64,000 nucleotides of DNA from Actinomycetospora chiangmaiensis DSM 45062 (GTDB lineage Bacteria > Actinomycetota > Actinomycetes > Mycobacteriales > Pseudonocardiaceae): contig NZ_KB903220.1 in the NCBI RefSeq assembly GCF_000379625.1, forward strand, positions 101 through 64,100, given 5' to 3'. This document shows positions 264 through 14,547 of the stretch, piece by piece. The notes under the pieces are model-generated. The model was not told the origin of the DNA, ran no database searches, and was given only the letters and a program-made list of their open reading frames with translations. The position numbers and the translations under genes are program-made. Every line of letters starts with the position of its first letter. Position 1 is the first letter of the stretch.

Positions 264-776
264 TCACTGGCTCTTGCTGGCAGAATTCGAGGACCGCGCG
301 AAGCGTGCTCTACGTCTTTTCACTGCCGCCTCGACTACTAGGGCTGCCTCCGAAGCCGACTCGTGCTCCCAAACGCGGATAACCACCCATCCTGCAGATT
401 CTAGCTGGTTGTCCGTGTCACGATCGCGCTTCACGTTTGAGGCAATTTTCGATGTCCAGTATTCGGAGTTGGCGTGCGTGCGTCTTCGTCCGTGAACTGG
501 ACAACCGTGCCAAAAGCAGCCGTCGACGAATACGGCCACACGGGATGGGCCGAAGACGATGTCAGCTCTCCGCCGTAGTGACTTTATCGGCGACACGTCT
601 ACTCGATACCTCAGTCCAATAGCATGCAACACTCTCCGAAGAGCTAATTCAGGACCCGTATCCCGTGTGGGTTGTCGTTGCATGCGACGTCGAACGTCCG
701 CAGAACTAGCCCAGGAATTTGACTGTCCCCCCTGGGGGTAACGTATGGCGGACGCAGGACGACCGGCACTATTCAC
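264..776 (-). CDS. vsr: Vsr-like very short patch repair endonuclease
   Basis: A 170-aa protein of the Vsr family. In E. coli, Vsr nicks next to T:G mismatches produced by deamination of 5-methylcytosine and is normally encoded beside the cognate cytosine methyltransferase. Visible family motifs are the N-terminal MxRQPTRDTGPELALRR segment (about residues 32-48), the catalytic region ADIVF with its aspartate (about 71-75), and FVDGCFWHGCPVH (about 83-95) with the zinc/catalytic His and Cys residues, followed by the WxxKIxxNxxRDxxxxxxLxxxGW block and VWEHE. It is the last gene of the minus-strand operon, 7 nt after the large ATPase gene. Since a 5mC methyltransferase heads the same operon, the mismatch-repair role fits. 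A restriction role cannot be excluded, as Vsr-fold nucleases also occur as effectors. Confidence 0.88.
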   Translation of the reverse strand: MNSAGRPASAIRYPQGGQSNSWASSADVRRRMQRQPTRDTGPELALRRVLHAIGLRYRVDVSPIKSLRRRADIVFGPSRVAVFVDGCFWHGCPVHGRRRTHANSEYWTSKIASNVKRDRDTDNQLESAGWVVIRVWEHESASEAALVVEAAVKRRRARFARSSNSASKSQ

Positions 777-783
777 TGTAAAG

Positions 784-3700
784 CTAATGCCGTGTAGTTG
801 GGGTCAGGCGCGGCAGGCCAAGCTGGTGGGCGTCGCGGTGCGCCTGTGCCATACGCACTAGGCGTGGCCTGCTTCCTCGCAGGCTGACATACGCCTCGCC
901 CACTCCAAGACTGCGGATCTGGTCTGTCAGGCGAGGGTTGTCCGGCTCGAGTTTGCGAGCTGCCATCGTCGCCACTGTTGCATCTGGCAGGCCAAAGCAG
1001 ATTTTGGTTTGAGCATTCGCTGCCACCACTTCTGGCAGATCGAGTGGTTGCTGCGTCGCTAGGACGACGGCGAGGCCCTTCGAGCGACCCTCGCGAATCA
1101 TCGTCTGCAGCGCTCTGAAATCTTTCACTCGATGGGCTTCGTCCACCACAGCCACATATCGCACCGTGTTGGGGACTGGCGGAAGGTCCTGCACCTTCAG
1201 CAAGAGTGCGGACAAGATGAAGCCGGCCGCTAAGATCGTGGTCTGCCCGTTACCTGGGATGTGGGACAACCCAAAGACGACGTTCCGGTCAATCACGTCT
1301 CCAAGCGGCGGACCAGCGCGGAACAATTCGTAGTGGGTAAGGTCCCCTAGTACACCTGCCAAGTCGTCGTCAAGACGATCGTCCAGAGTCAGCAAGGTTG
1401 GCCATCGGTCCTCAGTCCTTGCCGTCTGGTAAGCGGAGCGCAACGCCGACACGAGCTTCTGCCGTTGCCGAACGCCCATCCGAGTAAACGAGCGGGTGGC
1501 TTCGTCGACCGTGTCGCGAAGCGCAATGATCGCCGTCTCAACAGCGCGGTCTGAGTCTGATTCGAGTGCTAGCGGATTGTACGGAGCTCCCGTATTCCAG
1601 AGGTCGAGGAACTCGGCCTCCGCAAACGAGGGAAAACCCGCGTCGTCACTATAATCATTCTTGAAATCCGCAATACCGAACTTGCTTCCGCTCAGATGAG
1701 ACAGCTGGCCCAGTAGACTCATCACGAACTGAGTCTTGCCCATTCCAGAGGATCCCCAAATCTCCGCGTGACCGTTCTGCAGGACGTCCTGCCCTGGTCC
1801 TGCGGGATGCCATCGGATCTCCTCGCCTGTGGTGGCGTCCCAACCGAGAACTGGAGCTGCGAAACCGGCGACGTCGATTGTGCGGTCGGAGCCCACCTGA
1901 CCGTCTTCTGGTCTCGGAGAGCCGAGGTCGGCGGCGTTAGTAGATGGGTCGTCGGGGACGGGCTCTGCGTCGGCCTGGGCCACTACTTCGATTACTGCAT
2001 TACCGGCGTGGACCGTCTCTTCCGGGCGGTCTATTTCCGGAGCACTTGAGGAACCTCCATCAAAGATACGACTTTCCGTCTCCCTGCCATTCGTCTCGGC
2101 AGGATCAACTGCGGCTGCTTCCGGCTGTTTCCGTGCCTCTGGCCTCCGTTTGGTACGCCCGCCTTGCAGCGGCGCCGAGGTCGCTTCCACTGTACGGAGC
2201 GTCGTCAGGTTAGCGTGCGTCGCTTGCTCGAGGAGTGACTGCGTGAGTTGAACGTTCTGGAGGACTACGGGCACGATGTCGCCCGCGACCTGCTGCGGGT
2301 AGTGCCTGCTCGATGGCTCCAAGTGTGGCCCAAAGACCAGACCAATCCCTGCCCACTCAAGAGTACCGTTACCGCGCCGGAATGCCTCAAGCGCCGCAAT
2401 TTCGCGCTTATCGAGCCGAAAGCGCGACTCGCGGGCGACGGCGTAAGCCGCTTCCGTTATCCGATTGAGCCATAGGCGACTATAAACCGAGCCCGCCTCG
2501 GGATACGCAGCCCAGCGTGTAGCGGCTAAGGTCTGCTGCAGTTGGTCGAGGGCTCCACTCCCTGCGTCTGTTTCGTCGCTCCGCCGAGCTTTAACCTCGA
2601 TAACAGCGACATGAACACCACATTCTTCGCTGTCGAGGGCTAGGGCGAGCAGGTCCCCCCTCTTACCTGGGAACCAGTGACGATATTCGTCGAGGCCTAC
2701 AAGAAGGACCCTGCAGCCAGGGGGCAGGGGCCACGGCGTGGCAGTTGTCGCGAGTAGGCTAAATGCGACCACGTGGCCAACAAGTTCGTTGATTCCCGCG
2801 CCGGTAGTGGCGGCCTGGAGGGCCAGAATCCCGTAGCCCTGGCTCGCTACCTTGCGGATATCCGTCCCAACGTTCAAGGCTATGGCCGGGTCCGCGACTA
2901 TCCCAGCGGTGCGCAAACTCCTGCCAATAGCGCGATCCGCCGGTCCTCCCGATTTCTGGCTTAGGACAAGGGACAGCGGGCTGTCGCCTCCAAGGCGCTT
3001 CTCCTGGTGCAGAATTGCTATCTCGTCTCCGAGGGCCTGCTCCAGACTGTCACGTGTTGCATAGCGGTCAAGTGTGGCAATCCATAACGCAAGATCATGT
3101 AGTTGTTGCAGCTGCTCCCGGATGTCGAGCGTGCCTGTACGAACCTCGGGTACTCGGATGCGATCGCCCGGCTCCGGCCAACCCTCGTCGACCGCGTTCT
3201 GCAACTTCAACCACGTCTGCGCGCGACCGGTGGCTCCCGGGGGCATTAGAAGTGTTCGCCGCTCCTGACGGGCGCGCTGCCACGTGCGAGGAGCGAATAG
3301 CACTTCGTCGTCGTCGGACGGGGGGTCGACTTCCGGGGACTCAACCTGTAGCCGATTACCGCCCTCGGTTAGGCCGGTGACTAAGGCGAGGTGGGCAGCC
3401 GGAGCCTCGCTACCTTGGGGGCGGATCAATTGCGCCGCCTCGTCCAAGCTGTCGACGTAGCGAAGCTCCAGAGTGTGCCGTCGCCCACGAAGCTCATCGT
3501 CCGCCCAGTGGAGCGTCTCCCACCGAGGCCGGTCGTCGTGCGAGCTACCGATACAAAAGATCTCGACCTTGCCGAGCACGGCTCGTCCAACTTTGCGGCC
3601 GAGCATCTGCACTGTCCGGTGCACAAGAAGGTCTGCGGCACCCGGTCCCCAGGTGAGGCACTTCAAGTGTCCCGCGGCTTCCGGCTGGAGAGCCAGGAGC

Positions 3701-5763
3701 CGCCCGAGGACACCCTCCAAAGCGGAACCCGCGTGACCACCGTCGTCGGAGGGAGAGCTTCCACCGTATAGGCTCCAGACCCTACCTTCGTTACTAGGCA
3801 ATAGGGCGCGATCGCGAGTGCGCAGGCGGAGAAACGGTGGATAGTGGGCGGCGGTTGTGCGGGCGATTCCACCGACTGTCGCGACGACAGGACGGAGCAC
3901 TTCCGACTCCGGCTCCTCGGCGTCGACAAGCATCCGGCGCAGCGCGTCGTGATATTGGCCGAGCCACTCGGCCTTCAGCGGAGCCAGCGGAGTTAGAGCG
4001 ACACCTTGGTCGGGCATTGGACCGACGACTGCACCTGCGAGGGTGAGCTGTTCCGAATCGTCGTCTCTCCTCGCCTTCTCCCGATCGTTACAAGCTTCCT
4101 CCCAGACCGCGCACCAGGATTGCAAGCGCGCTGAGTCAAGGCCATGCTCCAGCAGATTCCGCGCAAGTGCGTTGAGCTGCTGAGCCACGGGCAGGAGCTC
4201 CGTAGGCGGGACTATCCCCGTTGGCGCGTCCGCGTCAGAGCCGGTGCAGAACGTTGCGAGACTAGGTTCTGATCGCATTGCGAGCGTAAGAGTGGGGCTT
4301 TCAGCAAAGAGCATTGCGGCCCGAAGAGTGGCAACGTCGTCTAGGTCGGGTCGCCAGTCCACCTGCACAGTATTGCCGTCGCCCTCACCGTAGACGCGGA
4401 GCTGCAGCGGAGGGAGATCGGATCGACTGAGGTCAGCATTGACAAATGCGTCTTGATCAATGTTCGTGTCGGCTGGCTGCAGAAGGAGCCCATCTATTTC
4501 TCCGCCTGTCTGGTTCCACTTTCTTAGCAATGCGCCCAGTCGCAACCGAGCGCAGGCGAGCGTCACCTGCTGACCTGCACTGCTGCGCGTCGGGCGGGCG
4601 GGAGGAGACGATAGAGTAGGAGAAAGAACTTGCACTCGTTGAATGAAAGTTCCACCAAGTTGCTGAGCTGCTCTTGCCAGCGCAGCCTCGGGGCACGATG
4701 GCCGACTTCCGTCGACGGACTTGTCTCGGAGGAGACGTTCAAGAGCGCCACGGGTCTTCTTTGAGAAAAGCTTTTGTTCTTGTCCGTCGTCCAAGTCGCA
4801 GAACGACTGGGCGGCTTCGCGCTGACGTGGACCCCGACGGAGGTCCTCCGTCTGAGCCACGTAACTGTCCCAGGGGAGCGCTGCAGCTTGGCTTGCCGAT
4901 GATAGACGGTTGCGGTAGTCGGCAACCTCTGTAGCTACTGCAGCAGGAAGCTTCAAATTCCGCTGCTCGAAGATTTCGCGAGCCTCATCGAATTGAAGTG
5001 TTTCCAGAAGGCGGTCGTCCCCAGCCTGGAGAAGCGCCATAACTCGATTAGCCTCGACGGTGGCGGCGTCGCCCTGACGCAACGCCGGTCTACGAGCCAG
5101 CACGCGTTCAGTTCGTCGGCGTAGTTCGGCGTAAGCGACGGGCCGCAAAACGTCCTCGCTGGTGCGCTGACGCGCGAGATTTAAATTATCGATTATGCGG
5201 TCACTGTCAACTCGTTCTCCCGTCGAGTGATCTGCGTACGCGCCTAGGAATGTTAGAGCCTTTAACGGGTCGGTGCCGGCCGCGACCCTATCAAAGTAGG
5301 AGGCCACCGACGCTGCCCCTGGACGGCGAGCGGAACCCAAGTTAAGCAGAGCATCCCGGACCGCTCGCACCGGACCGTCGAGCGCAACGGGCGGCTTTTG
5401 CTTTGCTAGCACAGCCAGACCCTCGGCGCTTTCAAGCAGGACGCTGGGGGAGATGGACTCGAATAGAGTGAGGGACTGCCGGTCCGGCACCTGCTGACCT
5501 TCACACAGGACAAGCACAACGCCAAATTCCCCATTCCGACCGCGCCGGTTGCGAAGCTCCGTCCCTGACGCGCCAACGAGTGCGTACTGTCCGAACCGCT
5601 CTGGGGCGTCGGAGACGATAGCTAATGGAGGAAGGCCCGAGTCCCAGTCGTTCGCCATTCCTTCTGCAAGATCGGTTGACACACCCTCGATCAAAATGAA
5701 GCGGGAACTGCCGCTCATACGCTTGATATGATCGGCAAGGCCGGAACCAAGTCTGGTGCTCAT
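784..5763 (-). CDS. Large HerA-type ATPase with PD-(D/E)xK-like region (DptH-like)
   Basis: A protein of about 1659 aa. The first roughly 1000 residues match nothing I recognise. Near residues 1035-1110 there is a restriction-nuclease-like pattern, an aspartate in RGDLLALAL followed by AVIEVKARR, which fits the D...ExK core of PD-(D/E)xK enzymes. The C-terminal third carries a HerA/FtsK-like motor: Walker A GSSGMGKT (about residue 1338), the characteristic D-F-K following strand (FGIADFKNDY), and Walker B VRYVAVVDEAHR (about 1538), with the ATQQP sensor segment soon after. Start chosen at 5763 because its ATG overlaps the upstream stop as ATGA and has GGGAGG six bases ahead; an in-frame ATG exists at 5787. 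Length, HerA domain and order after two smaller genes resemble DptH of phosphorothioation-dependent restriction. That assignment is inference. Confidence 0.75.
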   Translation of the reverse strand: MSTRLGSGLADHIKRMSGSSRFILIEGVSTDLAEGMANDWDSGLPPLAIVSDAPERFGQYALVGASGTELRNRRGRNGEFGVVLVLCEGQQVPDRQSLTLFESISPSVLLESAEGLAVLAKQKPPVALDGPVRAVRDALLNLGSARRPGAASVASYFDRVAAGTDPLKALTFLGAYADHSTGERVDSDRIIDNLNLARQRTSEDVLRPVAYAELRRRTERVLARRPALRQGDAATVEANRVMALLQAGDDRLLETLQFDEAREIFEQRNLKLPAAVATEVADYRNRLSSASQAAALPWDSYVAQTEDLRRGPRQREAAQSFCDLDDGQEQKLFSKKTRGALERLLRDKSVDGSRPSCPEAALARAAQQLGGTFIQRVQVLSPTLSSPPARPTRSSAGQQVTLACARLRLGALLRKWNQTGGEIDGLLLQPADTNIDQDAFVNADLSRSDLPPLQLRVYGEGDGNTVQVDWRPDLDDVATLRAAMLFAESPTLTLAMRSEPSLATFCTGSDADAPTGIVPPTELLPVAQQLNALARNLLEHGLDSARLQSWCAVWEEACNDREKARRDDDSEQLTLAGAVVGPMPDQGVALTPLAPLKAEWLGQYHDALRRMLVDAEEPESEVLRPVVATVGGIARTTAAHYPPFLRLRTRDRALLPSNEGRVWSLYGGSSPSDDGGHAGSALEGVLGRLLALQPEAAGHLKCLTWGPGAADLLVHRTVQMLGRKVGRAVLGKVEIFCIGSSHDDRPRWETLHWADDELRGRRHTLELRYVDSLDEAAQLIRPQGSEAPAAHLALVTGLTEGGNRLQVESPEVDPPSDDDEVLFAPRTWQRARQERRTLLMPPGATGRAQTWLKLQNAVDEGWPEPGDRIRVPEVRTGTLDIREQLQQLHDLALWIATLDRYATRDSLEQALGDEIAILHQEKRLGGDSPLSLVLSQKSGGPADRAIGRSLRTAGIVADPAIALNVGTDIRKVASQGYGILALQAATTGAGINELVGHVVAFSLLATTATPWPLPPGCRVLLVGLDEYRHWFPGKRGDLLALALDSEECGVHVAVIEVKARRSDETDAGSGALDQLQQTLAATRWAAYPEAGSVYSRLWLNRITEAAYAVARESRFRLDKREIAALEAFRRGNGTLEWAGIGLVFGPHLEPSSRHYPQQVAGDIVPVVLQNVQLTQSLLEQATHANLTTLRTVEATSAPLQGGRTKRRPEARKQPEAAAVDPAETNGRETESRIFDGGSSSAPEIDRPEETVHAGNAVIEVVAQADAEPVPDDPSTNAADLGSPRPEDGQVGSDRTIDVAGFAAPVLGWDATTGEEIRWHPAGPGQDVLQNGHAEIWGSSGMGKTQFVMSLLGQLSHLSGSKFGIADFKNDYSDDAGFPSFAEAEFLDLWNTGAPYNPLALESDSDRAVETAIIALRDTVDEATRSFTRMGVRQRQKLVSALRSAYQTARTEDRWPTLLTLDDRLDDDLAGVLGDLTHYELFRAGPPLGDVIDRNVVFGLSHIPGNGQTTILAAGFILSALLLKVQDLPPVPNTVRYVAVVDEAHRVKDFRALQTMIREGRSKGLAVVLATQQPLDLPEVVAANAQTKICFGLPDATVATMAARKLEPDNPRLTDQIRSLGVGEAYVSLRGSRPRLVRMAQAHRDAHQLGLPRLTPTTRH

Positions 5764-7301
5764 ACACGCACCTCCCGGCCGCTCCACGCTGCGCGCTCCC
5801 CAACTACCGTTGTGCGGTCCGAGAGTCCAAGCGCGAGCCCCGCCTCAGACATCATGCGCTCCGCTCGACGGGCGTTGCGCTCCAACGCCGCGCCATCAAG
5901 TTGGCCGGCCAAGCTGGTGTGAGCGGCCGCTTCCTGATTGATGACGAACCCCCATTCATCACGGACAGCTGCGAAGAATTCTCGGCTCGACATAGGCATC
6001 CTCGTCGACAGAGCTCCCACAAGGGCCCCGAGAAGGTCTGGAGTAGCCGTGAGGTAACGGTAACGTGTTCCTGCGATCAAGCCGATTGATTCAAAGAGGA
6101 CTCGAAAGCCGTCTTCCGAGCGCCCATAGTTAGCGTTCTCGACAGCGGTTCGAGCTAACGTGAGATAATTCTCTTCGACTGAGGGATGCGTCATTCGCCG
6201 GAGTTGATGGCTGACATCTTGCAGCGCGTCTGCGACGGAGCCCTTCCTCATCTCAAAGTCGCCTTCCCACTCCTTGTGGCCTTGCAGTCCGAGCTCGCGC
6301 ATACGACGCCCAAGAGTTGATACTGTCGCTTCCGCCAGCCGGATCCTGGCCCTGCGAAACGAATCTTCGGATTGCTGGCGGACCGGATCTTGGGCTCGGG
6401 CGTCGTCGCCGAAGCTCAGTAAGAGGAAGCGATCAGCCGCGGGGGTTTGGGTAATGCTCCATGCCGTTTTTAACACGTGAATCGCTAATGCGAGTGCGAG
6501 AGCGGTCCGGAGTTGCCACAACTTTTCTGGGCCGCTCGCAGACCCCTGTCCCATCACTCCGTCCGCGTGTAGGCACACCTGCGTTTCTAGGTCTCGCAGG
6601 CGAGAGTCACGGGCTTGTTCCCAGGCGTTTTTCTCATCTGACTCAACCATGGCGAAATGCTGCCTCGGAAGCGCTGCTTCGAGTTGTTCGCTGATCTTGG
6701 CTAGAGGACTTGGCGTCTTGAGAGCTTGCTGAATTGCGTCAACTGCCCGTAAGCCGTGGGGGCGAACCATCACATTTCCCGCGTCCGCAAGCATCCGGGC
6801 GAGAGTTATCCCGCTTCCACGCATGTAGACCTTGCGGACAGACCAGTCGTGCCGGCTCGGGCTTGCCTTCCGCGCGTCATACCAGAGCAAGGACTCGTGG
6901 AACGGTCGAAGTAGCCAAGCACCACGCTGGCCGCGCTGTGTATCCGGGTCCACCAGGCCCATCAAGGTCTGTTGGGCAAGCTGCAAGTGCGCAGAGCCCC
7001 GAATTTGGCTACCAGTTGAAAGTAGCTCGCCGTAGCGGGACGGCGAGGTGTCCTCGTCGCCTACCCGGCCTTTGTCTTTTCCGTACAAGAAGTTCTGTTC
7101 AAGCGCAAGACTTCGGACTGCGAAGAGTTGTCTCTTGGGACTCTTCAGATCCTCGACGCTTGGAGCTGTGTAATTGTTCTGCACTAGGGTCAACAACGTC
7201 TCAGCGCACAACTGCGAGGCACGTTCATCGCGGTCGGGATCTAGCCCAAACAGATCGACCGCTATCTGACGAGGAGCCAGTCTCCTCGATCCAGGCGCCA
7301 T
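5760..7301 (-). CDS. Unknown middle component of the defence operon (DptG-like by position)
   Basis: A 513-aa protein with no motif I can assign: no Walker boxes, no clear nuclease core, no membrane segment and no signal peptide. It is largely alpha-helical in appearance, with charged and leucine-rich stretches. Its ATG overlaps the upstream ATPase stop as TAATG and its stop overlaps the next ATG as ATGA, so it is translationally coupled on both sides and almost certainly made in fixed ratio with its neighbours. By position between the small ATPase and the HerA-type protein it corresponds to DptG in dptFGH clusters, whose own function is poorly defined. Homology was not tested. Confidence 0.7.
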   Translation of the reverse strand: MAPGSRRLAPRQIAVDLFGLDPDRDERASQLCAETLLTLVQNNYTAPSVEDLKSPKRQLFAVRSLALEQNFLYGKDKGRVGDEDTSPSRYGELLSTGSQIRGSAHLQLAQQTLMGLVDPDTQRGQRGAWLLRPFHESLLWYDARKASPSRHDWSVRKVYMRGSGITLARMLADAGNVMVRPHGLRAVDAIQQALKTPSPLAKISEQLEAALPRQHFAMVESDEKNAWEQARDSRLRDLETQVCLHADGVMGQGSASGPEKLWQLRTALALALAIHVLKTAWSITQTPAADRFLLLSFGDDARAQDPVRQQSEDSFRRARIRLAEATVSTLGRRMRELGLQGHKEWEGDFEMRKGSVADALQDVSHQLRRMTHPSVEENYLTLARTAVENANYGRSEDGFRVLFESIGLIAGTRYRYLTATPDLLGALVGALSTRMPMSSREFFAAVRDEWGFVINQEAAAHTSLAGQLDGAALERNARRAERMMSEAGLALGLSDRTTVVGERAAWSGREVRV

Positions 7302-9169
7302 TACTCAGTACCGCCGGATGTGAAGTGAGGAAGAGCGACGTTGACGAGAGTCGGTGGCAAGGCTTTGGGATTCGCGACCCGCAACCCACCGTCAGGCTCA
7401 AAGGTGGACGCTAGGGTGCCGTAGAAGGCCCGTAGATCATTCATCTCAGCCACTCCTTGCCCAACAGGACCTTGGTATTCGGCCGCTTCGCAGATCGCCT
7501 CGTACATCCGAGGTTTGATCCTCAGGAGGTGGGTAGGATTATCGTCAACAATAAGTTCGACCTCTATGTGATCAACGTCTAGTAGATCCTCGACGAGGCC
7601 TTGGTCGGGGGTGGAAAGTGAGAGTCTGTTCAAAGAAATTTGACTGTGTACGAGAGACGGGCTCGCAGGCCGGAACGATCCCGGGTCTCGAGCGAACAAG
7701 CAGGCCGGGTCGGGCACGATCAAGCCCTCATCTGCACTCGAGAACCCAGTCACAAGGAAGTTGAGACCCCGGGCCATTTGCCTGACGGTGAGAACCGTAT
7801 CCCGCCCTGCTGCGACGTCGTGTGCTAGGGCAATGAGTTCGGCGGTATGGCGATAGTCCAGCAGCCTGCGCGCCACAGCGGTTGGACCGCCGATGGGGTC
7901 TACGCCTTCGAAGAAGACCCTCTGTCGCCAGAGCACTTGGCCGGCGGCGTCGTTGTTGCGACCACCGACGAGGGCGTCTAGACCGTCCTCGACGCGAGTG
8001 GGATCTTCGTCAGTGCTTACCATTTCTCCGAGCGCATGGAATGTCATTGCACCCTGCAAAGTAGACACCCTATCAAGGGCCGACACGGTGCCTGCTAGTG
8101 CGACGTCTTGGTCGTCGCCGTCCGCAGCCCGAGCGCGGACTTGGGGATTTCCAGCGAGCCCGCGGATGAGGCTGGGGGCTCCGGTGCTGTCGCGAAGCCA
8201 TCCGTCGATCTCTAGATCGCTGACCTCTCCTAGGCCGGCCGACCGTAGTCCGACGAGGAGGGGAGACCTTTCCAGCACGTGATCCGGAAGGCCGCCACCC
8301 ACGAGGCGCGTGTAGTAGGCCTCGCTGGCGGTAAATGCCTCTGGTCCAATATCGCGGAATCTATTCTTAGTTTCGTGGCACGTATGTCCACCGACCACTG
8401 CCCACGACAGGATCGCGAGGACTTCGCGGAGAGTTGGGACCGCATCACCCGAGGCCAGACGAAGGAGCGTTCTTACTTGCTCCTGTACGACGGGGCTGCG
8501 CAATTTTTCGGCGTTGCTGCGCATGGGGCATGCACCCGAGTCGAAAGGGCATCCGTCACAACCACGCCACAGGTCGTCCCTAAAGAGGTATTCCAGAATG
8601 CTTTGCCAAAACCCGTCTGCGGTTGGGCGCTGACGGTTTACGTTGACAAAGGTGACGGCGGGAACGTCGTGGTGGGAAGCGCCATGCCTCAGGGCAAGAT
8701 CAAGGCTAGCTAGCAGACCTGGCTCGTGAAGTCCCTCGAGGGTGTCTCGTAAGACGCCTTCGTTTGCGCACACCAACGCTTGCCCCGTGAGCGATTTTGT
8801 TAGGGCAGATGCCATTGCGTCCTCGCGGGCGCGTGGATCGGGGAGGCCGGACAGATCCTTCACCACCCACTTGTCCGCGGCCACCTCTGAGAGCTGGTCA
8901 TTGCTTGGTAGCGTAGTGTTGAGCGTTTCGCAGAAAGCCTCTGCGACGGCCGTCTTGCCCGTGCCCGCATTGCCCGTCAGGACCACGACTCCGCTCGGTC
9001 CGTTAGAAGTCCACGAGGCGATCCAAGTAGCGAGTTTTGACCGAGCGTCGTCTCCCAAGATGGAGCTCGCGTACGTTGCGTGTTCGCGATATGCCCCAGC
9101 TTGATCAGCAGAGAAGACGGAGAGTGTGCGGAGGGCGACGACTGCTTCGAGCTCCTGAGGTGGGTTCAT
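7301..9169 (-). CDS. P-loop ATPase with cysteine cluster (DptF-like)
   Basis: A 622-aa protein. Walker A GNAGTGKTAVAEAF lies at about residues 66-79, so it is a P-loop NTPase with an N-terminal nucleotide site. Around residues 203-220 is a compact cysteine group, CDGCPFDSGACPM followed by an Asn, suggestive of a zinc knuckle; a similar Cys-rich insert is what I remember of DptF proteins, but this is unverified. The start ATG overlaps the methyltransferase stop as ATGA. In the operon it would supply the ATPase or sensor function of a restriction complex with the two downstream proteins. Alternative reading: a STAND-like or generic AAA regulator of another defence system. Confidence 0.75.
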   Translation of the reverse strand: MNPPQELEAVVALRTLSVFSADQAGAYREHATYASSILGDDARSKLATWIASWTSNGPSGVVVLTGNAGTGKTAVAEAFCETLNTTLPSNDQLSEVAADKWVVKDLSGLPDPRAREDAMASALTKSLTGQALVCANEGVLRDTLEGLHEPGLLASLDLALRHGASHHDVPAVTFVNVNRQRPTADGFWQSILEYLFRDDLWRGCDGCPFDSGACPMRSNAEKLRSPVVQEQVRTLLRLASGDAVPTLREVLAILSWAVVGGHTCHETKNRFRDIGPEAFTASEAYYTRLVGGGLPDHVLERSPLLVGLRSAGLGEVSDLEIDGWLRDSTGAPSLIRGLAGNPQVRARAADGDDQDVALAGTVSALDRVSTLQGAMTFHALGEMVSTDEDPTRVEDGLDALVGGRNNDAAGQVLWRQRVFFEGVDPIGGPTAVARRLLDYRHTAELIALAHDVAAGRDTVLTVRQMARGLNFLVTGFSSADEGLIVPDPACLFARDPGSFRPASPSLVHSQISLNRLSLSTPDQGLVEDLLDVDHIEVELIVDDNPTHLLRIKPRMYEAICEAAEYQGPVGQGVAEMNDLRAFYGTLASTFEPDGGLRVANPKALPPTLVNVALPHFTSGGTE

Positions 9170-10317
9170 ACGCTCAGCGCCAGCTGCTGGCCGAGAGGCC
9201 GGCGCTGACCCTCCTTCCGAGCAGTAATTAGTTCGCGTGCACTCCTCGGAGGGACACCAGCTTCAGCGAGTCGCGTGGCCAGAGCGCCTACGATGACCTC
9301 AGCAGCGGGGGGTGGGACGGCGTTCCCAACCTGGCGCCGGACTCTCGGGTAGGCGCTCCGAGCGGATCGTGGGTTCGGGCGGCAACCGTGCTGGAAGACG
9401 AAGTCGTCAGGAAAACCTTGTAGACGGGCTTTTTCCCGGTTGCTCAGTCGTCGTGGTTCAACGTGGTGGTATCCATGTGTCCCGCCCCCGCCGCCGGCGA
9501 TCACGGTGTAGGCAGGTTTCCGCGGGTCCAGCCGCTTATACACGTGACTGATTAAGCCTTTGACTGCCAGCGGATGGTCGCTGTCGATCATCTCGTAATT
9601 CCCGCCCGGCGGAATGAGTTTCAGCCGCTCCACAACGTCGGGTGAGTCAAGGCCGAGCTCATGATTCGGAGCGTTGTCCGCCAGTGGGAACTTGTCGAGC
9701 ACTTCGCTCACTGTCCTGTGGGCGTCAGCGAATGGTGCCGGTACTGCCGGTGGCCGTACCCGGAGGTCTCGACGTACGCCGATAACGATCAATCGGTCCC
9801 GGTGCTGGGGGACGCCGAGGTCTGCCATGTCCACGACCTGCGCTGTCAGGTCGTATCGAACACCTCCGCGTCCGGACTCCCCTGGTTGCAACGCGGACGG
9901 TGCCCGCAAGGCGTGCCGGACAAGGGTCCACGCAGCGCCGTGGTTGGCTGACAAGAGACCGGGGACGTTCTCGAGCACGAACGCGGCCGGGCGCAGATGA
10001 TGCAGATAGCGCGCGACTTGTCGGAAGAGATTACCTCGCGCAGTCTTGAGGCCGTCGTGGTTCCAAAGCGTTGAGTAATCTTGGCACGGAGGCCCGGCGA
10101 GCAGGATGTCGCAGGGCACGTCGGGCACGGGCGTTTGAGTTATGTCCGCCTCGACGATGTGATTCCCGAGGTTGTGTCGGTACGTCTCTACCGCCCAGTG
10201 TTCATTGTCAATGGCCCATACGACTCGAGCCCTACCGCTGGCTTCTGCGCCGAGATCCATCCCTCCACAGCCTGCGAAGAGCGAGACTGCGGCGTACCGC
10301 TGCTGACGTCGCGCCAT
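9166..10317 (-). CDS. dcm: DNA (cytosine-5-)-methyltransferase
   Basis: A 383-aa protein with the ordered motifs of C5 methyltransferases: motif I SLFAGCGGMDLG (about residues 12-23, AdoMet binding), motif IV GPPCQDYS with the catalytic Cys (about 75-82), motif VI ENVPG, motif VIII QHRDRLIVIGVR, motif IX RLQGFPDDF and motif X QVGNAVPPPAAE. The length is typical of a solitary type II enzyme. A target recognition region lies between motifs VIII and IX but the site cannot be predicted. It is the first gene of the five-gene minus-strand operon, so modification would be established before or together with the putative restriction proteins. Upstream AAGAAGGGCGG is a plausible ribosome binding site. 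Family call is secure; role as self-marker for the downstream genes is inference. Confidence 0.95.
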   Translation of the reverse strand: MARRQQRYAAVSLFAGCGGMDLGAEASGRARVVWAIDNEHWAVETYRHNLGNHIVEADITQTPVPDVPCDILLAGPPCQDYSTLWNHDGLKTARGNLFRQVARYLHHLRPAAFVLENVPGLLSANHGAAWTLVRHALRAPSALQPGESGRGGVRYDLTAQVVDMADLGVPQHRDRLIVIGVRRDLRVRPPAVPAPFADAHRTVSEVLDKFPLADNAPNHELGLDSPDVVERLKLIPPGGNYEMIDSDHPLAVKGLISHVYKRLDPRKPAYTVIAGGGGGTHGYHHVEPRRLSNREKARLQGFPDDFVFQHGCRPNPRSARSAYPRVRRQVGNAVPPPAAEVIVGALATRLAEAGVPPRSARELITARKEGQRRPLGQQLALSV

Positions 10318-11840
10318 TGTCAGGCCGCCCTTCTTGGCATTCGAGAAGTCGATGGTGGTGCAGCATGAGCATGTAACAAGTGCGGCAATAGAGATTCCGT
10401 CACTTGGACGTGCCGATTGGTTAGGGCGGACCTTTCTGCTTCGATCCCTAGCCGGTGGCGCGCGGGCGGTCCTGGCTCGTCCGATGAGACGAGCCGGCCC
10501 GACCCAGCGAGCGCCGGCGCAGCGAAGATCGAGTTCATGAGGTCACCATAGGACGAGGGTCCGACAGTCTCGCTGCGACGGGCGCTTCGCTCGTCGGACG
10601 TACCAGGCCACGAGCTCGGCGGGACGGGGGGTGCTTAGCCTGCTCGCGGCGTGTTGAGCGCGGCATGAGGTCCTTGGCTCGGAGAGATGGGCAGGTCGGT
10701 GAGCCGGCGCCCCTGTGAGCCGCGACCCGCGCGTGGTCGGCTGGAGCGATTGCGTCACGTTTGCCCCCCTGAGGATCTGTCTGGTGATGCTGCCGTACGG
10801 CTCCCGGTCGCCGCAGGTCGGGGTGCTTCGTCCGAGCGACGACCTGGCAGACCGGGGGCGGCAGGCTTCGTGGTTGGCGGGGCTGCTTAGTCGGGGTCCG
10901 GCGCCCTGGGTGTCTGGTTAACTCCCAGTGGGGTCCTGAGGTGCCTCCACCGCTGACTGGTGAGGTGCCGTCGACGGGACGTGCGGCTCCAGGCCACTCC
11001 TCCTGTGTGTTCTTCTTTGGCGCTGGACCGCCGGCGGGTGAGATCGACCTGATGAGAGATGCGGCTCGCCGGTGTCCGCAACGTTGCCGGATCGCAGCCA
11101 GCACTTGAAGGCCAGCCTCGATGAGGGGCGCGCTGGACGTCGATCCATTCGGTGTTTAGCCGGCGTGTGGAGCGCGATAGGTCTGAACCAGGTTGGTGTG
11201 CGCCCCTGCGGTCGCCCTCTGCGCGGTCGATCATGCCAGCTGTGAGGGGCCGACCTCGCCCGGCGGCGAGCGACGGAGCGGAGATCGTGGCCAAGCCGGG
11301 GACCGTGCGACCGTGATGCCCGATCGAGGCTGAGTCCACGTCGACGTTCCCGGATCGGGCAGGAGGGTGTCGTGTTGGACCGTTGCCTTCGAGCCTGGGC
11401 CAAAGGTCTGTATCTGCCTCAAAGCTGCTGTCTTTCGCCGACAGTGCGCCGCGCAGCCCCGGCAGGCAAGGGTCGTGAGGGTCGGCGACGTCATCGGGCA
11501 ACGGCGCTCGGGACGCAGGGTCGTGTGCGACGTGCTGGAGCTGCTCAGGATCGCTGGCGATAAGGCCTTCTTCGCCGACTGCTACAGGACGGCAGCGAGA
11601 TCGTCAGCTAGTTCCAGGGCTCTGGGGCTGACCTCGTCGACACGCTCGGGCAGCCTGCCGCAGACGTGTTCGCCACGGTCACCGGTGCTGCGCGACCCGC
11701 TCTACACCGCGACATGAGCTACGGCCTCGAACGGCACGTGCGGGTCGGCGGCCGCGTGGCGCGGTGGCTCCCGCTGAAGCACCCGGGACAACGTATGCCG
11801 GCGTGGTTGCAGCACTACTAGAGTTGGATCGAGTCCCTCG
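10318..11840. other. Gene-poor region upstream of the defence operon
   Basis: No open frame here shows a recognisable family motif or convincing codon bias on either strand; all frames are short or look like chance openings. Composition returns towards high GC within it. Because it lies between a compositionally distinct operon and an ordinary catabolic cluster, it may be decayed sequence from past insertions, but I see no transposase motif in it. The promoter of the methyltransferase operon should be in its first few hundred bases. Confidence 0.5.
10474..10495. terminator. 8-bp perfect hairpin upstream of the methyltransferase gene
   Basis: GGCTCGTC and GACGAGCC form a perfect 8-bp stem around a 6-nt loop. 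No T-tract follows on either strand. It lies about 155 bases before the methyltransferase start, so it could insulate the operon from upstream transcription or be an operator; nothing in the sequence decides. Confidence 0.3.
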
Positions 11841-12311
11841 TCAGCTAGTGCACCCCGAGGCGCTGCTGTTCGCGCGTGCTCCCACCACCGCCGCGCGGAG
11901 CGGGATGCCAGCGATGGAGCGCGGACGCGGGACGGGGTCGGGAAGGGCATTCACGACGACGAGGCCATCGACGGCCGGGTGCTCTGCGAAGCGCTGAAGC
12001 CGCACGGTCATGGCACCGTCGACGCTACCGAGGGCGGGCACCACTCCGAGCGACGCCTCCACCCGCGGGAACGGCTCGGCCACGAGCAGGGGCAGCGAGT
12101 CTCCCGTGCCCAACGCGTAGTCCCGCACGATCACCAACCCGGCGCCGGCCAACACCACGGCGAGCGCAGCGACGAGCGATCGGCTGTCGAGGTGGGGGAG
12201 CGCCGCGCTCTCGATGATCTCGACGACGCGTTGGCTCAGCAGCTCCGCGTGCACGTCTACCTCCGGGGCGATCGACGACGGCTCCGATGATGGCCCACCG
12301 CCGCTCGTCAC
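11841..12311 (-). CDS. Hypothetical protein divergent from the hyuA-like gene
   Basis: A 156-aa reading frame whose residues from about 20 onward look like real protein (VDVHAELLSQRVVEIIESAA, then an alternating hydrophobic stretch with LPLLVAEPFPRVEAS and VRLQRFAEHPAVDGLVVV). I do not recognise the family. GTG at 12311 was chosen since the open frame beyond it runs into the hyuA-like start and has poor composition; GGGG lies just upstream. Its head-to-head placement with the catabolic operon suggests a regulator, but no helix-turn-helix is visible, and the short length could mean a truncated gene. Confidence 0.4.
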   Translation of the reverse strand: MTSGGGPSSEPSSIAPEVDVHAELLSQRVVEIIESAALPHLDSRSLVAALAVVLAGAGLVIVRDYALGTGDSLPLLVAEPFPRVEASLGVVPALGSVDGAMTVRLQRFAEHPAVDGLVVVNALPDPVPRPRSIAGIPLRAAVVGARANSSASGCTS

Positions 12312-12444
12312 ACGAGCCCCACGAGCACCAACCCGCGCTGCTCCACAACTCCGCCCTTGACGAGGCTTCGCTGGTGTCAGATAGTCGACGCCACCGTCAA
12401 AGTCGTGGCGCGGGTCACGAGCGAGTTTCAACGAGGAGCACCGC

Positions 12445-14547
12445 ATGGCCTACGTGATCGGCGTGGACGTGGGAGGGACCTTCACCGACGCGGTCTTGGA
12501 TGACGACTCCGGGTCGGTCATCGCCGCGAAGGCCCCGTCGACACCTCCGGACTACTCTCGGGGCGTGCTCGACGTCCTGGAGCTGCTGGCCGAGCAGCTG
12601 GGACGGTCGCTGGAGGAGATGCTGGCCGAGACCCACCACATCGCCCACGGCACCACCTCGAGCCTGAACGCCCTGGTGCAGCGCAAGGTCCCCGACGTCG
12701 GGTTCCTGACCACCAAGGGCCACCGCGACTCGATCTTCATCATGAACGTCGAGGGCCGGTACCTGGGCCGCTCCCCGCACGAGCTGCAGCACGTACTGGC
12801 GCAGGACAAGGACCACTACCTGCTGCCCAAGCGGCACGCCCTCGAGGTCACCGAGCGGATCGACCGCGACGGCAACGTCATCGTCGCCCTCGACGAGGAC
12901 GAGGTCCGCACCCAGGTCGAGAAGCTCCGCAGCGAGGGCATCCAGGCCATCGCGGTCTCCCTGCTCTGGGCCTTCCGCAACCCGACCCACGAGCGGCGTA
13001 TCCGCGAGATCGTCGCCGAGATCGACCCCGACATCTACGTCGCGCTCTCCAGCGAGGTCAGCCCCCGCATCCGCGAGTTCGCCCGCAACTCCACGACGAT
13101 CATGTCGACGCAGGTTGGACCCGGTCTGCGCGACTACCTCGCCAACCTCGAGTCGAGCCTCAAGCAGAAGGGCCTCGGCGGGCCGCTGCTCGTCATGCAG
13201 TCCAACGGGGGAGCGGTCGCCGCGAGCGAGGCCCCGCAGCAGGCCATCTCCACCGTCGGGTCGGTCCTCACCGGCGGTGTCATCGGATCGGTCCAGCTCG
13301 GCCAGAAGCTCGGCCACAAGAACATCATCTCCACCGACGTCGGCGGCACCACCTTCCTCGTCGGGCTCATCGTCGACGGCGAGCCCGAGCGCGACACCAC
13401 CACCGTCATCAACCACCATCCGATCAACGTCCCCACGCTGAAGGTCCACGCCATCGGCTCCGGCGGCGGCGCGATCGCGTGGGTCGACGCCGGCGGCAAC
13501 CTCCGCATCGGACCCCACAGCGCGCAGGCCGTCCCCGGTCCCGCCTGCTACGACCAGGGCGGCACCGAGCCCACCAACACCGACGCCAATCTCGTCCTGG
13601 GCATCCTCCCGACGACGGGTCTGCTCGGCGGTCGCAAGGCGCTCAGCCTCGAGAAGGCAAGACAAGCCATCAAGGCCAAGGTCGCCGACCCGCTCGGGCT
13701 CTCCGTCGAGGACGCCGCGGCCGCCATCCACGCCGCGCAGAACGCCCAGACCGGCGACCTGCTGCGCAAGAGCGTCGTCGAGGCCGGGCACGACCCGCGC
13801 GACTTCGTCCTCTACGCCTTCGGCGGCTCCGGCCCCGCGTTCTGCGCGAAGTACGCGACCCACCTCGGGGTCGACGAGGTCGTCGTCCCGCTCGGCCCGG
13901 TGGCCTCGGCGTTCTCCGCCTACGGCCTCGCTGCCTCCGACATCGCGCTCGCGCAGGAGCTCTCGGACCCCGCCCAGCTCCCCGTCGACGCCGTCCGCGC
14001 CGAGAAGAACTTCGCCCAGCTCGAGGACCAGGTCCGCCAGGGCCTCGACCGCCAGGGCCTCAAGTTCGACCGCGTCGAGATCGTCCGCGAGATCGACATG
14101 CGCTATGCCATGCAGCTGGCCGAGGTCACGGTCCCGGTCGCCGACGGCCCCGTCGACGCCGGCGCCCTGCAGGACGCCGCCAACCGCTTCGAGCAGAAGT
14201 ACGCCGACCTCTACGGCAAGGGCACCGGCTTCTCCGCCGCCGGCATCCAGGCCATCACCTATCGCGTCCGCGGCCGCGGCGTCCTCCCGTTCAGCCCGGA
14301 GCTCCCGCCGCTCGAGCGCGCCGTCGGAGAGCCGGAAGCCCAGAGCACCAGGCCCGTCTACCTCGAGATCGGCCAGGGCTTCGTCGACACCCCGATCTAC
14401 GACTACACGACCCTGCGCGCCGGCCACGTCATCACCGGACCCGCCGTCATCGAGGTCCCGACGACGACGGTGGTCGTCCCCGACGGCCGCACCGGCACCG
14501 TCGACGAGCTCGGCAACCTCCACATCCGCAGGACCCAGGGAGCCTAG
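12445..14547 (+). CDS. hyuA: Hydantoinase A/oxoprolinase-type subunit (carboxylase beta-like)
   Basis: A 700-aa member of the HyuA / acetone- and acetophenone-carboxylase beta family, which use ATP to activate a carbonyl or amide substrate. The start shows the actin-like phosphate loop YVIGVDVGGTFTDAV (residues 3-17), and later STDVGGTTFLVGLIVDG and HAIGSGGGAIAWVD, all standard for the family. GAGGAG lies about 8 bases before the ATG. The stop is 3 bases ahead of the hyuB-like start, so the two subunits are co-translated. Substrate cannot be read from sequence; the neighbouring aryl ligase and flavin hydroxylase favour an aromatic or ketone substrate over hydantoin. The family is certain, the reaction (hydrolysis or carboxylation) is not. 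Confidence 0.88.
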   Translation: MAYVIGVDVGGTFTDAVLDDDSGSVIAAKAPSTPPDYSRGVLDVLELLAEQLGRSLEEMLAETHHIAHGTTSSLNALVQRKVPDVGFLTTKGHRDSIFIMNVEGRYLGRSPHELQHVLAQDKDHYLLPKRHALEVTERIDRDGNVIVALDEDEVRTQVEKLRSEGIQAIAVSLLWAFRNPTHERRIREIVAEIDPDIYVALSSEVSPRIREFARNSTTIMSTQVGPGLRDYLANLESSLKQKGLGGPLLVMQSNGGAVAASEAPQQAISTVGSVLTGGVIGSVQLGQKLGHKNIISTDVGGTTFLVGLIVDGEPERDTTTVINHHPINVPTLKVHAIGSGGGAIAWVDAGGNLRIGPHSAQAVPGPACYDQGGTEPTNTDANLVLGILPTTGLLGGRKALSLEKARQAIKAKVADPLGLSVEDAAAAIHAAQNAQTGDLLRKSVVEAGHDPRDFVLYAFGGSGPAFCAKYATHLGVDEVVVPLGPVASAFSAYGLAASDIALAQELSDPAQLPVDAVRAEKNFAQLEDQVRQGLDRQGLKFDRVEIVREIDMRYAMQLAEVTVPVADGPVDAGALQDAANRFEQKYADLYGKGTGFSAAGIQAITYRVRGRGVLPFSPELPPLERAVGEPEAQSTRPVYLEIGQGFVDTPIYDYTTLRAGHVITGPAVIEVPTTTVVVPDGRTGTVDELGNLHIRRTQGA

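Follow-up and report, generated by a model that had tools for sequence, protein, structure and literature searches.

An FGH restriction module that probably takes 5-methylcytosine, not phosphorothioate, as its self mark in Actinomycetospora chiangmaiensis

The 64,000-nucleotide (nt) stretch of Actinomycetospora chiangmaiensis DSM 45062 analyzed here (NZ_KB903220.1, positions 101 to 64,100; hereafter, the window) carries a minus-strand operon at 264-10317, in which the open reading frame (ORF) list places a DNA C5-cytosine methyltransferase (M) first, then three proteins, F, G, and H, akin to the restriction subunits of phosphorothioate (PT) systems, and last the repair endonuclease Vsr. We consider it likely that FGH restriction in this operon takes 5-methylcytosine (5mC), not PT, as its self mark, with 5mC presumably playing the protective role. 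The computed support consists of the identities of the genes, their conserved order and tight overlaps, the correlated divergence of their products, catalytic motifs, and the presence of a methyltransferase in the slot of the PT genes. M is the sole modification enzyme in the operon. SspFGH deprived of its PT module has been reported to be toxic and to damage DNA that is not modified (PMC8092258), and Salmonella dptFGH without modification genes to cause severe disruption (review PMC12707154); on this basis, an operon with FGH but no PT genes would need another mark. The features of the operon are as follows:

9166..10317, minus strand: M, DNA C5-cytosine methyltransferase, M.NgoAVII-like (PF00145, 1.4e-55; TIGR00675, 167.4 bits, cut-off 100.65)
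9445..9633, minus strand: stretch of M aligning closely with the L082 protein (IPPGGN...HVYKRL...GGGGTHGYH; BLASTP alignment)
7301..9169, minus strand: F, SspF/DndF-like P-loop protein with no N-terminal fusion (SspF PDLC02795, 4.5e-26, residues 57-324)
8951..8980, minus strand: Walker A motif of F, LTGNAGTGKT (motif inspection of F proteins)
5760..7301, minus strand: G, SspG-like (SspG PDLC02799, 1.2e-13, residues 259-499, C-terminal half only)
784..5763, minus strand: H, SspH/DptH-like nuclease-translocase (mad8, 6.2e-21; DndH, 2.4e-20; SspH, 2.3e-16; scores on the longer ORF)
2590..2655, minus strand: putative PD-(D/E)xK-like nuclease core of H, D1037...E1056-V-K1058 (numbered from 5763)
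844..1851, minus strand: C-terminal HerA/FtsK-type ATPase of H, approximate limits (profile of ten H proteins)
264..776, minus strand: Vsr very-short-patch repair endonuclease (TIGR00632, 121.8 bits, cut-off 97.85; PF03852, 4.9e-18)

A first-pass annotation, made from the sequence alone, had described five minus-strand genes with three overlaps and one 7-nt gap, and all five ORFs were found there. The junction coordinates agree: M shares 4 nt with F, F shares 1 nt with G, and G shares 4 nt with H (read from the ATG at 5763), and a 7-nt gap separates H from Vsr. The longest ORF of H is 784-5787, starting with a GTG at 5787; H is taken as 784-5763 because the in-frame ATG at 5763 aligns with the start of its relatives.

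The three large proteins had been likened to DptF, DptG, and DptH, a resemblance borne out by the SspF, SspG, SspH, and DndH matches given above, the last falling in the C-terminal ATPase of H. As a label, it fits in part: among the PADLOC models, those for DndH recognize only the ATPase of H, whereas F and G are recognized by Ssp models and by none of the Dnd ones. The Walker A motif, the Asn of the Walker B strand, and the Cys cluster are kept in all ten F proteins (10/10). For G, whose Dnd counterpart is built of three winged helices, the AlphaFold model has a mean predicted local distance difference test score of 70, with no PDB match at an E-value of 0.001. In H, the SspH match occupies a central region (839-1251, in the numbering of the longer ORF), DndH and HerA models cover the C-terminal ATPase, and a profile of ten H proteins matched the DptH ATPase structure 7es4 (1.6e-12) and FtsK 2ius (3.9e-15).

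To find relatives, the genome_contigs collection, in which 84,980 species are represented by a single genome apiece, was scanned with two short peptide patterns. Eight relatives of F were found, in Sinomonas, Nocardioides, two Mycobacteriaceae, Cellulomonas, Actinotalea, and two Acidimicrobiia metagenome-assembled genomes (MAGs), and the order M-F-G-H is the same in 8/8; in one of them (L038), the start used for G is not a start codon, so the edge of G is approximate. In eight of the nine loci, that of the window among them, the M and F genes share 4 nt; in the remaining one, L039, the overlap is 8 nt. The linkage of these genes to cytosine methyltransferases, on which the first-pass annotation had relied, thus recurs in eight further loci, and also in L032, described below. 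Given that the scan used two peptide patterns and that the genome searches scored 3-6 candidates per genome, rarity is not established by these searches; match rows left unexamined are G097, twelve weak matches (L019-L030), L048-L066, and the long-F genomes G340, G281, G398, G446, and G252. In the FGH tree, the two Mycobacteriaceae loci do not group as each other's closest relatives, and L034, L035, and L040 have a transposase, a resolvase, and a phage-type integrase nearby; the operon therefore appears to be transferred horizontally as one unit.

M is the best-kept part of the operon, with 63-76% identity between the relatives and the window, compared with 44-61% for F, 46-65% for G, and 45-64% for H. 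Across the nine loci, the distances of M correlate with those of F, G, and H (r 0.95-0.97), and the correlation persists across seven loci when the MAGs are left out (r 0.84-0.88), with a permutation p of 0.005 or less in both cases; this demonstrates a common history and is by itself no proof of a common function. A tree places all nine methyltransferases in a single group (100/100), apart from three outgroup rows taken from other operons. Among 384 genomes of the class, matches to M above 700 bits occur only in two genomes with this FGH; the next-best match, at 220 bits, is in G388, where no F, G, or H match lies within the 19 kb region. M is 42% identical over 342 columns to the M.NgoAVII-type methyltransferase L082 (BLASTP), and many residues of the stretch at 9445..9633 are invariant across the nine FGH-linked methyltransferases. 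This stretch is presumed to be the target-recognition part; GCSGC, the site of M.NgoAVII, or a related GC-rich site is the candidate target of M.

A separate locus, L032:7020-17677 (genome G041, contig C5), from the same family as the genome of the window, combines a 5mC methyltransferase and SspFGH with a convergent Vsr gene just downstream. Its proteins match SspF (8.5e-34), SspG (7.2e-11), SspH (3.8e-93, in three stretches that include the C-terminal ATPase), and, for the methyltransferase, DruM (2.7e-110). H of L032 is FtsK-type, and the methyltransferase is distant from M, with a phmmer match of 2.6e-23 and a very long tree branch. Because of this distance, 5mC seems to have joined FGH at least twice.

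The modification slot was compared between these loci and 12 plasmid regions, which were examined out of 21 records in one plasmid search and 915 (40 listed) in another. In plasmid loci with an unfused F, SspB, SspC, and SspD lie beside FGH in 10/11, counting L115, which was the source of the SspB, C, and D queries and therefore matches itself, and none of the three is found in L121; a 5mC methyltransferase match within the stretch occurs in 0/11. Among the assignments behind these counts, L114 has a short F frame of 410 codons next to an IS5 gene, tblastn alone detected the F of L117, and G was assigned by position only in L115, L116, and L122. Conversely, actinobacterial loci with an unfused F, window included, have a 5mC methyltransferase in 10/10 and an SspB, C, or D match in 0/10. 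The slot contrast is strong as a pattern and comes from few independent events, in few lineages.

Beyond the loci themselves, profile searches found DndC (TIGR03183) in 0/10 genomes, that of the window included. DUF4007 (PF13182), which we take to be SspB and which fits its place in the plasmid loci examined, is present in 2/10 genomes, those of L038 and L039, both Acidimicrobiia MAGs, where it lies elsewhere in the genome (loci L043 and L042). It is found in none of the other eight, including the window's own genome, whose completeness is 97.6%, with no such value given for the eight genomes of named contigs. The earlier statement that the window has no dnd, ssp, BREX, or DISARM core gene holds in the window's own genome for DndC and DUF4007, the only two profiles run genome-wide, with BREX genes not searched for, and the window locus itself has no SspB, C, or D match.

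Vsr had been proposed as a partner in the operon. It directly follows H in the window and in four of the eight relatives (L036, L037, L038, and L040), with no Vsr match adjoining H in L034, L035, L039, and L041. Counting L032, Vsr is beside H in 6/10 loci, which upholds the partnership as an optional one: Vsr is an accessory component.

These observations can be assembled into a working model. M, encoded first, would place 5mC in the host genome, with GCSGC or a related GC-rich sequence as the probable target. F would act as a P-loop nucleoside triphosphatase and G as a probable DNA-binding subunit, while H would combine a degenerate methyltransferase fold, a PD-(D/E)xK nuclease, and a HerA/FtsK translocase. 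The FGH complex would scan DNA and damage, presumably by cleavage, DNA that lacks the mark, so that FGH without M should poison its own host. Vsr, where present, may repair the T:G mismatches that arise from deamination of M-made 5mC. More broadly, we lean slightly toward regarding FGH as a mark-agnostic restriction engine, in which self is set by the adjoining modification enzyme, and PT has given way to 5mC on two or more occasions, involving methyltransferases distant from each other and H ATPases of different types.

Several points weigh against 5mC as the self mark of FGH. The PT-linked loci examined are all on Pseudomonadota plasmids and are part of the matches only, and the counts of M-F-G-H loci are not independent events because the nine loci are one lineage. 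PT could protect in the two Acidimicrobiia MAGs because a DUF4007 protein is encoded there. Vsr is not beside H in 4/10 loci, is absent from 3/10 genomes, and is common in this actinobacterial class anyway (54/148 genomes). Some FGH modules seem to do without Ssp genes and 5mC methyltransferase alike: in 13 loci with a long F (~1270-1570 codons; L068-L079 in genomes and L118 among the plasmid regions), neither an Ssp gene nor a 5mC methyltransferase was matched in 13/13, where Dnd genes were not searched, G and H of the 12 genome loci were judged by layout, with H profile-checked in L069 and L079, and L073 is cut by a contig end. Finally, Rakesh et al. 2024 argue that DndFGH stands alone and that modification guidance is not required (PMC10853773).

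This last model, carried over to the operon, would make FGH a stand-alone invader sensor and M and Vsr a separate epigenetic or anti-restriction function that shares the operon. We regard this as unlikely. The 13 long-F loci fit it, joint transfer would also give the correlated divergence described above, and in L032, the distance between the methyltransferase gene and F is 229 nt, unlike the overlaps elsewhere; yet M and F overlap in all nine loci of the window's lineage, and two lineages with distant methyltransferases have them in the slot held by PT genes in 10/11 other unfused-F loci. It is very unlikely that 5mC activates FGH instead of blocking it, on the pattern of SspE, an effector described as PT-stimulated among PT systems: the homologues SspFGH and DndFGH are reported to damage mark-free DNA, and the host itself carries M. 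Least probable of all is that FGH is guided by PT whose genes lie outside the locus, with M adding only a second mark, for which DUF4007 in two genomes speaks, and against which stand the lack of DndC in all ten genomes and of DUF4007 in the other eight.

Among the known systems closest to the operon, SspABCD-SspFGH of the Vibrio anguillarum FF-93 type (PMC8092258) shares the F-G-H order, similar sizes, and the SspF, SspG, and SspH model matches. However, the window locus has a 5mC methyltransferase, often with Vsr in relatives, in place of any SspB, C, or D match, and in its H, the DndH and HerA models align with the C-terminal ATPase and the SspH model with a central part. The operon resembles DndABCDE-DndFGH/DptFGH in the match of the H ATPase to DptH 7es4 and in the Walker B Asn and Cys cluster of F, reported for DndF; it differs in that the genome is without DndC and that, of the PADLOC models, only Ssp ones recognize F and G. 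Rakesh et al. 2024 also describe CxC-DndE systems in which cytosine methylases replace PT genes, comparable to a methylase where PT genes are expected here; there, however, the methylase joins an ABC ATPase-DndE core, an HKD nuclease, and an SF2 helicase, not FGH (PMC10853773). CglI/NgoAVII restriction-modification is reported to pair a related 5mC methyltransferase (42%) with a restriction complex dependent on nucleoside triphosphates (PMC4267653). Unlike DISARM and Druantia, the operon has no Drm or Dru proteins besides the methyltransferase: M alone among its proteins matched the DruM and DrmMII models (PADLOC), and F, G, H, and Vsr matched no Drm or Dru model at an E-value up to 1.

In the passages of Rakesh et al. 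2024 on these systems (PMC10853773), FGH is nowhere given a methylase partner, and the word "Vsr" is absent from the main text; a 2026 BREX paper, in the portion touching on Dnd, repeats only their Dnd point. Among the matches listed from open-licence literature, none combines FGH with a 5mC methyltransferase or Vsr. How DndFGH and SspFGH recognize self and non-self is disputed, between PT-guided and stand-alone models, and a natural FGH with a 5mC methyltransferase in the PT slot would allow the question to be tested cleanly, with a mark that is easy to map. Such an operon also ties PT restriction to ordinary restriction-modification, and its existence suggests that searches starting from PT-modification genes may miss some FGH defence loci.

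Among the long-F FGH-like loci, the kinase part of F is shown by profile in L069 and annotated in L118, which also has an annotated N-6 DNA methylase nearby. Large ORF pairs lie beside L073 (795, cut, and 1033 amino acids) and L075 (1148, cut, and 1039 amino acids).

The operon lies close to the contig start, which is 100 bases left of the window. Its GC content, said by the first-pass annotation to be below that of the surroundings, is indeed so: 0.58-0.64 in 1-10 kb and 0.66-0.68 in 10-12 kb, versus 0.67-0.81 past 12 kb. The insertion sequence that had been placed at the operon end was not confirmed: five ORFs from 10535 to 12446 have no Pfam match at an E-value of 0.01, and a blastn comparison of 10318-12440 with plasmids gave no match, with no insertion-sequence library searched. 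This interval may be decayed DNA marking the border of an acquired island. About 2 kb (10318-12440) separates the operon from a hydantoinase gene at 12445.
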